A stretch of DNA of 64,000 bases. It comes from Thermosediminibacterales bacterium (GTDB lineage: Bacteria > Bacillota > Thermosediminibacteria > Koleobacterales > JARRCM01). Every line of letters begins with the position of its first letter. The first letter of the stretch is position 1. Position numbers and translations under genes: made by a program. Shown here piece after piece: positions 49,222 to 53,781 of the stretch. The stretch is from positions 1 to 64,000 of the forward strand of contig JARRCM010000009.1 in assembly GCA_029982205.1 (NCBI GenBank). The letters run 5' to 3'. The notes below the pieces were generated by a model. The model ran no database searches. It saw only the letters and a program-made list of their open reading frames with translations, and was not told where the DNA came from.

Positions 49222-50133
49222 TTATATCATACCAAGTTTTTTTAAAGCCATCACAAAAAAAACAGAAGTCAAAACTAGACTAAATAAAAACACCATGTTC
49301 AAAACCATATCACCATTTGCTTTTTTTTTCAATACCGATTTTCTCGATTGTTTATTGATAAGACGTTTTAAATCACAAAAAAACTCTGTTGTATCATTAT
49401 ACTTTTGAAAAAAACCTTTCTTCAAAAGCTCTTTTGTTTGCGGAGTGGCTTTTTTAAGACCGTTAATCATTGTAACTAGTTTGTTTTTATCACCGGGTAA
49501 TACGCTCTTCCCGTTTAAGAGAACATACAAGAACATCGTAAGGGAAAAAACATCATATTTCTCATCTGCCCAGCGTGACCCCATTTTCCAACTCGCTCTA
49601 TCAAAACAAGGAGTAAACTCTTTTACTCCTTTCCCCTTTTCAACAATCCCTCCAAAATCTATAAGCTTTATTTGCCTGTTTTCTCTGTTATATACAACGT
49701 TTTCTGGTTTTAAATCACAATAAACATAACCGAAGGAGTGTAGTCTGTTTAATAACGCTGCAACTAATAATGTCATATATAATGCTTCTTTAAGTTTAAA
49801 GTTATAATTAGCCATCAAAAATTTAAGGTTTTGCCCTTTTATAAACTCCATTGAAAAAAAATAAAATGTTTTATTTTGAATTTTACAGTCATCTAAGCAA
49901 TAAACTTCAGGAACTGCCGAAATCCCCTTAAGCATTTTTAAACATTCATATTCTTTAGTCATGCTAGAAAGGTTTCGGCCTATTTTGACTGCTACTTCTT
50001 CTTTTTGTTCTGGATTATAAGCCCTGTATACTTCTCCTATACCGCCTCTTCCTATTATTTGTATTATAATAAACTTTTTCCCGCTCCAACGACCTGTTAT
50101 AGTGTATCCTGACGGAAGATGCAGCTCATTCAT
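49222..50133 (-). CDS. Membrane-anchored Ser/Thr protein kinase (YabT-like)
   Basis: A 303-residue Hanks-type kinase. Gly-rich loop I-G-R-G-G-I-G-E-V-Y near residue 27, catalytic Lys in V-A-V-K-I, catalytic loop Y-C-D-L-K-P-E-N-V-V, and D-F-G-G metal site. One C-terminal membrane helix (about 278-298) ends the protein, as in B. subtilis YabT, a spore-development kinase without extracellular sensor domain. Order yabS-yabT-tilS is retained, which supports orthology. Confidence 0.88.
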   Translation of the reverse strand: MNELHLPSGYTITGRWSGKKFIIIQIIGRGGIGEVYRAYNPEQKEEVAVKIGRNLSSMTKEYECLKMLKGISAVPEVYCLDDCKIQNKTFYFFSMEFIKGQNLKFLMANYNFKLKEALYMTLLVAALLNRLHSFGYVYCDLKPENVVYNRENRQIKLIDFGGIVEKGKGVKEFTPCFDRASWKMGSRWADEKYDVFSLTMFLYVLLNGKSVLPGDKNKLVTMINGLKKATPQTKELLKKGFFQKYNDTTEFFCDLKRLINKQSRKSVLKKKANGDMVLNMVFLFSLVLTSVFFVMALKKLGMI

Positions 50134-50201
50134 TCTATTACACCTCTTCTACACAGCGGTATTTCTTTAATTATAAAACAAGGCCTTTTTTATAAGGCCT
50201 T

Positions 50202-50909
50202 TCAAATTATCTGTTCCTTTAACAACAAGCCACCTTTAGGTTCATCGCTGATGAAATTTAGAGAATCACGTATTGCTAAAGCTGTAGGAGTGGCACCTTC
50301 AGCCCTAAGACCTTCAAGGTTTTGTTTTAAACTCTCGAGATCATCAGTAAAACCGGAAATTGTATATGAGGTCCTCCCATTTCTTCCGGGAAAACCCATT
50401 ACAGCTATAAGGTTTTTCCCTTTACGGGTTTCAAGAGATTTGAACAGGCTTAATATGCTTTCTTTTGCCACAAGCAGTTTATCTGCCATACTCCCGCTGG
50501 TGTCTATTAATATTACTACTTTAAGATTTACTTCATCCTGCAGCCTGTCTATCAAATCAATTATCTGACACCTGTCATTAGGAGGAATATTTTCTATGTC
50601 TTTTCCCATAATTTGTCTCAGCTGTTTGTTAACAATACCTTCTATTGTCCCCTGTATTGAGCTTTGGGTAAGCATTATCATAGATGACGCAAGCTCTTCC
50701 AATTCTACTATTTGGTGGCACCCTCCCCCTGCCAGCGCAATCTGTTCTACTTCTTCAATGCCTTTGCTGTTCGGAGACGCTATTCCTATGGCATTAACTA
50801 TAACCCCATTTTTTTCAGCGTTTGCAGCCGCCGCACATGGGTCTCCTCCTGTATTCGAATGCCCATCAGTAACCAAAACAATTTGTTTGACTTCAAAATC
50901 TTTTTCCAC
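50202..50909 (-). CDS. yabS: von Willebrand factor A domain protein (YabS-like)
   Basis: A 235-residue protein. The central and C-terminal MIDAS motif D-T-S-G-S-M-A (in V-V-I-L-I-D-T-S-G-S) indicates a metal-dependent adhesion fold, with another vWA-like half at the start (L-V-T-D-G-H-S-N-T-G-G-D-P). GTG 50909 is preferred because GAGGAGG precedes it and the resulting N-terminus lines up with B. subtilis YabS; the ATG at 50960 has no ribosome site. In Bacillus it is sporulation-associated; the molecular role is unclear. Confidence 0.83.
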   Translation of the reverse strand: MEKDFEVKQIVLVTDGHSNTGGDPCAAAANAEKNGVIVNAIGIASPNSKGIEEVEQIALAGGGCHQIVELEELASSMIMLTQSSIQGTIEGIVNKQLRQIMGKDIENIPPNDRCQIIDLIDRLQDEVNLKVVILIDTSGSMADKLLVAKESILSLFKSLETRKGKNLIAVMGFPGRNGRTSYTISGFTDDLESLKQNLEGLRAEGATPTALAIRDSLNFISDEPKGGLLLKEQII

Positions 50910-51013
50910 AATCAACACCTCCTCAGCCTTAGGATACCCATATTGTTTCAATATATGCATAATATTCCATTTGTTTTAAAACCTTAAAAAAGCAGACAAC
51001 AAAAAACTCCGGT

Positions 51014-53461
51014 CTATGCCCGGAGCCTTCTTTCCCAAAGTTTTGCAGCCAGTATAGTTATATCATCCCTTATATCAAAATTTGTAAGTGTTAAAACATC
51101 ATTCAAAAGTGTATCTGCTAACTCTTGAGGGTTTCTGGTATTCAAACTTTTTATTTTTTCAGAAATCCACTTTTCAGGGTCGTTTTTGATAAGGCCAACA
51201 GAGTCAATCAAACCATCACTCATCATAATAACAATATCACCCGGTTTTAATTTCTTTTTAATTTTCTCAACTTCTACTGAATTTAATATTCCTGCAGGCA
51301 AACTCTCTGATTTAATTGCTTCAACACTGTTTTCCCTTTTTATAAAACTAGTACATGATCCTGCTTTCACAAAATTTATTTCACCATTATACAGATTTAC
51401 CATCCCCATGTCTATTGTAGAGAAGGTTTCTTCCCTTGACCTGTGCAAAAGCACAGAATTAATTGTCTTAACCGCAACATCTTCCTTGAAACCAGTTTCA
51501 AGAAGCCTTTCAAGAAGGCTTATAGCTGTATCGCTTTCTTTTAATGCTTTTGAACCCACACCCATTCCGTCACTTATAGCTAAAAGATATCTTCCATCCC
51601 GTAAATGCCTAAAGGTGTTTGTGTCACCTGACACCTGATTTCGGTTTTTAGGCATCGTGGCTACCCCCACCGCAACCTCAAACACCTCTGCGGAGTTCAA
51701 TCGAACACGACAGATATTCTTGTTGTTTTTTAATCCACACATTGAATCCCTGATGACCATTCTATCACCTACGGCTTCTGAAACAGCAGGCAGAATTTTT
51801 GTTATACAGTCCCTATCGCCCTTACAAGCGGTTTTTTCGAGATTTATTTCCAGGCCATAACCGGGATTTTCCATTACCAAAAGTTCTTTGTACTCAACCC
51901 CAATTGTTTTTAGCTTGTTTATTATTTTTTCTTCAAGGTCTCTTCTAAATATCACTTCTGTTTTTATTTCATCAGCAATATCTGCCATAATTCGAGAAAT
52001 GCTCTTTAGCTGTTCAGCCACAAGTTCCTGGTTGTCCGCTACTTTTTTCTGCCATTGGTAATTAATCCTGCACGCCTCTACAAGGCTGTTTATCATATCA
52101 ACAAGTTTTTCAGTGCGTAAACACCGTTTAGAAAAACTTATCGGCAGGTTGTTGCCTCCTGCTTTTTTGTTTTCACACAATGAAATAATATCAAATATTT
52201 GTTGATATGTTTTATAAAAATCCTTTTCCCAACAAGTTTTATAAAGTGAACACGAATTACACACCTTGTTCATAACAGCAGCAAAAATCTCTTCTAAATT
52301 GTTCTTTTCTATTATTCCTTTTCTGTTTTGTTGTGGAGCAAAAATACATGATAAATCTTCAAAGAGATATGATACTTCCTTTAATCTTAGTGAAGCAAGG
52401 CACCTTACTTTTTCACTAAACACGCCATCCGCCCACGAATGGAATCCTGATATTGAAGAACTTAAACCTGAAAAAAGCAAGTTACGATTTGATGTTAAGT
52501 TCATAGTTTTCCTAGGTATTGCCAAAAACACCAAAGATGCCACAAACACTTCTTTTATCGGAACATAAATTTCCGAGAAATGGTTTATATAATAAGTCAG
52601 CAAACTGCTTCCACCTATGAAACCAACAATCACACCTATTTTCCCCATAGTATTAAATATTCCTGACATCAATCCTGCAAACGAATATACTCCTATCAAC
52701 ATAGGAGATGCAGCAGCCATTAACGAATTCAAAACCCCCAGTATCGCACCTCCTGCAGGCCCTATAGAAGCGCCGTATATATAAGAAACCATAAGAATGA
52801 CAAAAATCTGCAGGCTTGTTGAAACAGATGCACCATATATTTTGATTTCAAAACCTGACAGCACAATTCCTAAAAGAATAATAATAGCAACAATCTTTTC
52901 ATCCGTCAAACTTACCTCTTTACCGTCATGTTTTAAAAAACATGGCAAACCACAGAAAAAAATATATGAAAGAAGAAAAACCATTAAAGATTCAAAAGAA
53001 ACAACTATCACATCATACAATATAAATCCCTGAAAATAAACTATAATCAAACTTGTTACAAGACTGATTTCAAACATTAAAGCAGCTGTAACCAGGCCGT
53101 TCCCATTCAATTTCTTTTGAACAACCATGTAAATCAAAACAAACAAAACCGCAGAAATAATATAACGAAGTGAATCAACCTCCCAATGGGATGATAAAAA
53201 ACCTAATATCGTAAAAACTGCTACACCAATAACCTTTTTACGCTGTGCAGAAACAGCCGCAATATAAGCCAGTCCAAAAGGAGATAGGCCACCTAAAATA
53301 GATGCTCGTCCCAAAAAAAATCCTAATAAAGCAGGAATAATGTTTTCACTTGTTATAATACTTAACAGCTTTTTTAGAAATTTCCTTCCTCCCGTATTCT
53401 GAAATTTGACTGTAGTTTTAAAAATTCTTTGATCAGAAAATGCTTCAGCTTTGTTAAACAT
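51014..53461 (-). CDS. spoIIE: Stage II sporulation protein E (PP2C phosphatase)
   Basis: A 815-residue membrane phosphatase that dephosphorylates SpoIIAA, activating sigma-F in the forespore, and acts in polar septation. About ten N-terminal helices (residues 30-300), a central regulatory region with a cysteine cluster (C-x2-C-x4-C-W, about 410-418), and a C-terminal PP2C domain (L-A-I-S-D-G-M-G-V-G; V-I-M-M-S-D-G-L). The frame stays open to an ATG at 53563, but those 34 codons cover the promoter and Spo0A boxes and have no ribosome site, whereas GGGTGGTG precedes 53461. Length is close to the 827 of B. subtilis. Confidence 0.95.
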   Translation of the reverse strand: MFNKAEAFSDQRIFKTTVKFQNTGGRKFLKKLLSIITSENIIPALLGFFLGRASILGGLSPFGLAYIAAVSAQRKKVIGVAVFTILGFLSSHWEVDSLRYIISAVLFVLIYMVVQKKLNGNGLVTAALMFEISLVTSLIIVYFQGFILYDVIVVSFESLMVFLLSYIFFCGLPCFLKHDGKEVSLTDEKIVAIIILLGIVLSGFEIKIYGASVSTSLQIFVILMVSYIYGASIGPAGGAILGVLNSLMAAASPMLIGVYSFAGLMSGIFNTMGKIGVIVGFIGGSSLLTYYINHFSEIYVPIKEVFVASLVFLAIPRKTMNLTSNRNLLFSGLSSSISGFHSWADGVFSEKVRCLASLRLKEVSYLFEDLSCIFAPQQNRKGIIEKNNLEEIFAAVMNKVCNSCSLYKTCWEKDFYKTYQQIFDIISLCENKKAGGNNLPISFSKRCLRTEKLVDMINSLVEACRINYQWQKKVADNQELVAEQLKSISRIMADIADEIKTEVIFRRDLEEKIINKLKTIGVEYKELLVMENPGYGLEINLEKTACKGDRDCITKILPAVSEAVGDRMVIRDSMCGLKNNKNICRVRLNSAEVFEVAVGVATMPKNRNQVSGDTNTFRHLRDGRYLLAISDGMGVGSKALKESDTAISLLERLLETGFKEDVAVKTINSVLLHRSREETFSTIDMGMVNLYNGEINFVKAGSCTSFIKRENSVEAIKSESLPAGILNSVEVEKIKKKLKPGDIVIMMSDGLIDSVGLIKNDPEKWISEKIKSLNTRNPQELADTLLNDVLTLTNFDIRDDITILAAKLWERRLRA

Positions 53462-53496
53462 ATAAAACACCACCCGTTGTTTTAGTGTGTTTTTAT

Positions 53497-53529
53497 ATTG
53501 TAATACAAACGGATGGTTTTTTTTGTCAG
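53497..53529 (-). promoter_or_regulatory. Spo0A-dependent spoIIE promoter with 21-bp spacer
   Basis: -35 CTGACA (53524-53529), 21-base spacer, -10 TACAAT (53497-53502) on the minus strand. The long spacing is the hallmark of the spoIIE and spoIIG promoters, which sigma-A uses only with Spo0A~P. Transcription should start near 53490, 29 bases before the ATG at 53461. Confidence 0.8.
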
Positions 53530-53537
53530 TATCAGTA

Positions 53538-53563
53538 GGGTCGAACTCATAATTTTCCGACAT
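53538..53563 (-). promoter_or_regulatory. Candidate Spo0A boxes
   Basis: Two matches to the 0A box TGTCGAA: TGTCGGAA at 53555-53562 and GGGTCGAA (plus strand) at 53538-53545. They lie just upstream of the -35 element, the position used in B. subtilis spoIIE. Confidence 0.6.
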
Positions 53564-53587
53564 TTATTTCTATAAAAAATAAAAAAA

Positions 53588-53607
53588 TGTGCTTTACGCA
53601 CATTTGA
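53588..53607 (-). terminator. Terminator after the tRNA-Met pair
   Basis: Stem AAATGTGC/GCACATTT around GTAAA. On the minus strand it is followed by TTTTTATTTTTTAT. It isolates the tRNA transcript from spoIIE. Confidence 0.8.
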
Positions 53608-53627: not shown

Positions 53628-53704
53628 TGGTGGCGGCGCAGGGATTTGAACCCCGGACACTGCGGGTATGAACCGCATGCTCTAGCCAACTGAGCTACGC
53701 CGCC
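53628..53704 (-). tRNA. tRNA-Met (CAT), elongator type
   Basis: 77 bases with encoded CCA. Cloverleaf: acceptor GGCGGCG/CGCCGCC, anticodon loop TTCATAC with anticodon CAT, stem TGCGG/CCGCA, T-loop TTCAAAT. The paired first base and lack of three G-C pairs in the anticodon stem indicate an elongator; a lysidine-modified tRNA-Ile(CAT) cannot be wholly excluded. Confidence 0.9.
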
Positions 53705-53705
53705 C

Positions 53706-53781
<76 letters not shown>

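Follow-up and report, generated by a model that had tools for sequence, protein, structure and literature searches.

The segment upstream of a SpoIIE start in a Thermosediminibacterales bacterium is most likely a promoter with a widely conserved 21-bp spacer

We found that in the window, that is, the whole 64,000-nucleotide stretch of DNA analyzed here, the spoIIE coding sequence most likely starts at the ATG at position 53461 on the minus strand and extends to 51014 (815 codons plus stop). The longest open reading frame begins at the ATG at 53563 and has 849 codons; its 34 additional codons (53462 to 53563, minus strand) are most likely noncoding promoter and 5' leader. In our judgment it is highly probable that this segment serves spoIIE as promoter and leader, activated by phosphorylated Spo0A and used by sigma-A RNA polymerase, with translation from 53461. 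On the minus strand, the order of elements is ATG 53563, CTGACA (53529 to 53524), 21 bases, TACAAT (53502 to 53497), GGGTGGTG, and ATG 53461.

The protein read from 53461 matched the SpoIIE profile TIGR02865 over its full length (profile positions 2 to 764 of 764) at 678 bits, above the curated cut-off of 490.8, and also matched the solved SpoIIE phosphatase chain 5ucg. The initial annotation had placed the only ribosome site at 53461 and had suggested an alignment of SpoIIE N termini. Pairing with the anti-Shine-Dalgarno sequence was calculated as -9.8 kcal/mol at 53461 versus -0.1 kcal/mol at 53563, and of the five start codons in frame between 53563 and 53314 inclusive, pairing was good only at 53461, the others ranging from -4.0 to +1.3 kcal/mol. 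Besides, the SpoIIE N termini of three relatives from the same order begin to align at the methionine at 53461. A longest-ORF gene caller would place the spoIIE start 34 codons too far upstream. Downstream of spoIIE (49222 to 50960) we observed a VWA-domain-like protein and a PrkT-like Ser/Thr kinase (both below curated cut-offs), followed by tilS.

The pair CTGACA-N21-TACAAT occupies 53529 to 53497 on the minus strand, 35 bases upstream of 53461. Its -35 hexamer (53524 to 53529) and -10 hexamer (53497 to 53502) are 21 bp apart, within the 21- to 22-bp spacing that characterizes spoIIE/spoIIG-type promoters. The motif pair alone was no better than chance in the window: 19 N21 pairs with two mismatches were found versus 13.7 ± 3.75 expected, and 11 of 100 shuffles of the window gave as many. 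Motif counts within the window fail to separate the site from chance and were not used as support; its significance comes from its position and its conservation.

We examined this conservation in 134 spoIIE upstream regions, including the window's own, representing 114 genera in 71 families of the phylum. Fifty-four regions were best matches, and 80 were chosen from match lists to cover many families and genera; further matching genomes (matches were obtained in 188 of 299 in one search and in 56 of 61 in another) were left out, and six named loci (L003 to L008) were not counted. The first 30 upstream sequences had already been seen when the rest were picked, and picking did not use the promoter sequence. 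The 400 bases before each SpoIIE match (fewer in 2 of the 134 regions) were scored against TTGACA/TATAAT as matches out of 12, and family counts are also given because the genomes share descent.

Pairs at 21 bp that match in 10 or more of the 12 positions were present in 94 of the 134 regions (54 of the 71 families), versus 3.1 expected from shuffles, which supports the promoter that the initial annotation had read ahead of 53461. When pairs of either 21 or 22 bp were accepted at the same threshold, the counts rose to 110 regions and 59 families; the spacing, first claimed as conserved in this one distant genome, is kept more widely than was proposed. Pairs at 21 or 22 bp were lacking in 24 of the 134 regions at the threshold of at least 10 matches and in 15 at that of at least 9. 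In a control stretch 400 to 800 bases upstream (n = 127), 33 pairs were found at 17 bp and 3 at 21 bp, whereas the proper regions of the same 127 genomes gave 89 at 21 bp and 3 at 17 bp. Because the control stretch peaks at 17 bp, the odd spacing belongs to spoIIE and not to the genomes. Secondary peaks at 10, 11, and 12 bp (17, 26, and 22 of 134 regions, respectively, versus about 3 expected) are attributed to a conserved spacer element; a 16-bp pair was also seen in 14 of 134 regions versus 3.1 expected. One surveyed genome (G153) encodes a SpoIIE very close to PDB 5ucg, from Bacillus subtilis, and shows the same promoter array at spoIIE.

A consensus was derived from the 106 regions (59 families) in which the best pair had a 21-bp spacing and 9 or more matches out of 12. 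The hexamer columns are conserved by this selection; the columns at -72, at -45, and from -30 to -25 were not selected. In these hexamer-selected promoters the third base of the -10 hexamer is T in 83% and C, as in the window, in 13%. The family-weighted consensus contains a TGTCGAA-like box near -72, a C at -45 (73%), and a stretch at -30 to -25 that is T-rich and then C. The corresponding place in the window (53520 to 53515, minus strand) reads AAAACC. Because position -30 was not listed in the 6-of-7 count of 0A matches, the idea of a third tandem 0A box there was rejected, and we claim no more than a conserved pattern of bases.

The initial annotation had located candidate 0A boxes at -40 to -70. 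A conserved distal box was confirmed, but at -72 to -66, just outside that range: TGTCGGA (53556 to 53562, minus strand) has one mismatch to TGNCGAA and provides the upstream 0A box expected of such promoters. When sequences with no more than one mismatch to TGNCGAA were counted in the 106 promoters, 46 carried a forward box beginning at -72 and 18 one beginning at -71; the median position has none. The claim needs amending for TTCGACC (53539 to 53545, minus strand; -55 to -49), the other 0A-like match within that range; it is in reverse orientation, lies off the conserved register, is not among the enriched 0A positions in the 6-of-7 count over the 106 promoters, and is absent from the three same-order relatives (G001, G002, and G003); it is probably fortuitous. 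To the original proposal we add a second, weak 0A-like site that overlaps the -35 hexamer itself, TGACAAA (53528 to 53522), with one mismatch to TGNCGAA, although most of these letters are fixed by the -35 sequence. An 0A-like match over the -35 region was found in the forward direction at -38 in 29 and in the reverse direction at -40 in 27 of the 106 promoters.

The false ATG at 53563 consists of an A and the TG of the distal 0A box. We counted start codons in 124 regions, namely, the 106 above and those with 22- or 20-bp pairs of at least 10 matches, leaving out 10 of the 134. In 80 of these promoters a stop codon between the -10 hexamer and the start closes the SpoIIE frame; in 44, as in the window, the frame stays open through the -10 hexamer. 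In all 124, the candidate with the strongest anti-Shine-Dalgarno pairing, at -6 kcal/mol or stronger, is an in-frame start below the promoter. In 25 of the 124, a start codon in frame lies above the end of the -10 hexamer, so the same false-start error is possible there, and in 7 of these 25 one such start is formed at the TG of an 0A box. The fixed box at -72 is one source of false starts, a fact added by this analysis.

It is very unlikely, in our view, that the promoter is real yet responds to another regulator, or to sigma-A alone through another spacing, so that Spo0A is not needed in this lineage. The window's own assembly is 86% complete, and we found in it only receiver-domain matches and no Spo0A_C domain, which would suit such a reading, as would the window's 0A boxes, which are only near consensus. 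However, matches to recN and spoIVB in the same bin were only weak and partial, and in G002, from the same order, a stretch of about 4.1 kb contains recN, spoIVB, and spo0A. Since these neighbors are missing as well, a gap is the simplest reading; the absence of spo0A is probably a gap of the incomplete bin, with one missing stretch explaining all three genes, and a reading of spo0A as lost was rejected on the same ground. Furthermore, Spo0A_C was detected in 19 of 19 other genomes tested, among them all three same-order relatives, which also keep the conserved Spo0A helix. That helix was read by a text pattern in 10 of the 19 loci; eight of these 10 relatives have TTPSRVERAIRHAIE, and two (G153 and G201) differ by one residue. 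The -72 box is itself kept in the window. As for another spacing, a poorer alternative -10 hexamer is readable (CTGACA-N18-TATTAC), but a scan for pairs of 16 to 18 bp under its own rules listed none on the minus strand between the terminator and 53461. We infer from these sequence comparisons that the window promoter may well depend on Spo0A.

Upstream of spoIIE are two tRNA-Met (cat) genes (53628 to 53704 and 53706 to 53781, minus strand); tRNA genes, mostly Met and Glu, were also seen in the flanks of 21 of 42 other spoIIE loci scanned. Between them and spoIIE lies an intrinsic terminator stem-loop (53585 to 53605, minus strand; 1 found versus 0.6 expected in the stretch scanned), and the 21 bases from its stem to the false ATG begin with a T-rich tail of ten. 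The least probable reading, to which we give hardly any weight, is that ATG 53563 is the true start and that SpoIIE with 34 extra residues is translated from a tRNA read-through transcript: the frame is open and begins with ATG, the tRNA genes are preceded by a pair resembling a promoter (53853 to 53825), and G003 carries a TTG in frame at the corresponding position, but this ATG is without a ribosome site, the terminator stem ends at 53585, G001 and G002 are without a start codon above the -10 hexamer, and the feature common to the four same-order genomes there is a pattern in the DNA. Comparison with the 133 other genomes, the Shine-Dalgarno test, and the terminator immediately above the false start together uphold the initial annotation in rejecting ATG 53563 as the start and in regarding the 34 upstream codons as a promoter region.

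The same spacing was found at spoIIG. In the window's genome, TGACA-N21-TATAAT lies upstream of spoIIGA (contig 2, from 34518). Among 30 spoIIGA upstream regions, the best 30 of 132 genomes with a match and scored without a shuffle control, 27 had an N21 pair matching in 10 or more of 12 positions; among the remaining three, the spacing is 22 bp in G153, G105 shows neither spacing, and G068 offers only 41 bases. The 27 promoters have C at -45 in 93%, A at -44 in 85%, and T at -30 to -28 in 85 to 93%. We also observed an 11-bp pair in 12 of the 30 regions, and the T-rich spacer pattern that spans -30 to -25 at spoIIE spans -31 to -27 at spoIIGA. An exact bin-wide scan for TGACAW-N20-TAYAAT does not define a regulon, as it gave five sites, including those at spoIIG and spoIIE, versus four in the reversed control. 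Tentatively, the 21-bp spacing might be an ancestral trait that marks the two Spo0A-sigma-A promoters, together with a spacer element that is T-rich and, at spoIIE, followed by C. The C at -45 lies 10 bases above the C and A of the -35 hexamer, and the spacer element about 10 below, perhaps reflecting half-sites phased by 10 bp through which a single Spo0A array could hold the polymerase over the long spacer; we regard this proposal as possible but doubtful.

In the explanation that we favor, a promoter and leader in front of ATG 53461, the sequence itself, its conservation, the ribosome site, and the sequence of the terminator are what we observed; binding, the sigma factor, and the transcription start are what we infer. 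Phosphorylated Spo0A would bind the distal 0A box at -72 and the weak site overlapping the -35 hexamer, and sigma-A RNA polymerase, on its own presumably ill-fitted to a 21-bp spacer, would thereby be recruited and positioned. Transcription would then begin near 53490, which puts the -10 hexamer at -12 to -7 and predicts a leader of about 29 bases. Translation would start at ATG 53461, and ATG 53563 would be a by-product of the 0A box.

This kind of promoter is already known; what is added here is the breadth of its conservation and the conserved spacer element. Our literature search, conducted mostly outside full texts and subscription papers, found no description of phylum-wide conservation. 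With the geometry present in 59 of the 71 families examined, it could mark direct Spo0A control in uncultured spore-formers.

The spoIIE and spoIIG promoters of B. subtilis have spacings of 21 to 22 bp, and Spo0A positions the polymerase there. Those promoters resemble that of the window in this spacing, in having 0A boxes upstream and near the -35 hexamer, and in driving the same genes; the window differs in its TACAAT hexamer, its 0A boxes that are each one mismatch off, and its in-frame false ATG. In Clostridioides difficile, the Spo0A DNA-binding domain binds weakly in vitro upstream of spoIIE and spoIIGA (PMC3485338). A more recent study (PMC13395437, 2026) describes predicted Spo0A sites in the C. 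difficile spoIIE promoter at positions similar to those in B. subtilis and finds that spoIIE transcription is promoted when one CAAAAA, adjacent to a predicted Spo0A site and near the -35 region, is methylated. CamA, the enzyme that methylates this motif, is reported to be specific to C. difficile (PMC13395437), and we claim no methylation for the window. CAAAAA was found at -35 in 9 of our 124 promoters. Like the CamA site Me3 of the C. difficile spoIIE promoter, where CAAAAA stands beside a putative Spo0A site near -35 (PMC13395437), the window has this motif at -35, at 53525 to 53520, overlapping the -35 region.
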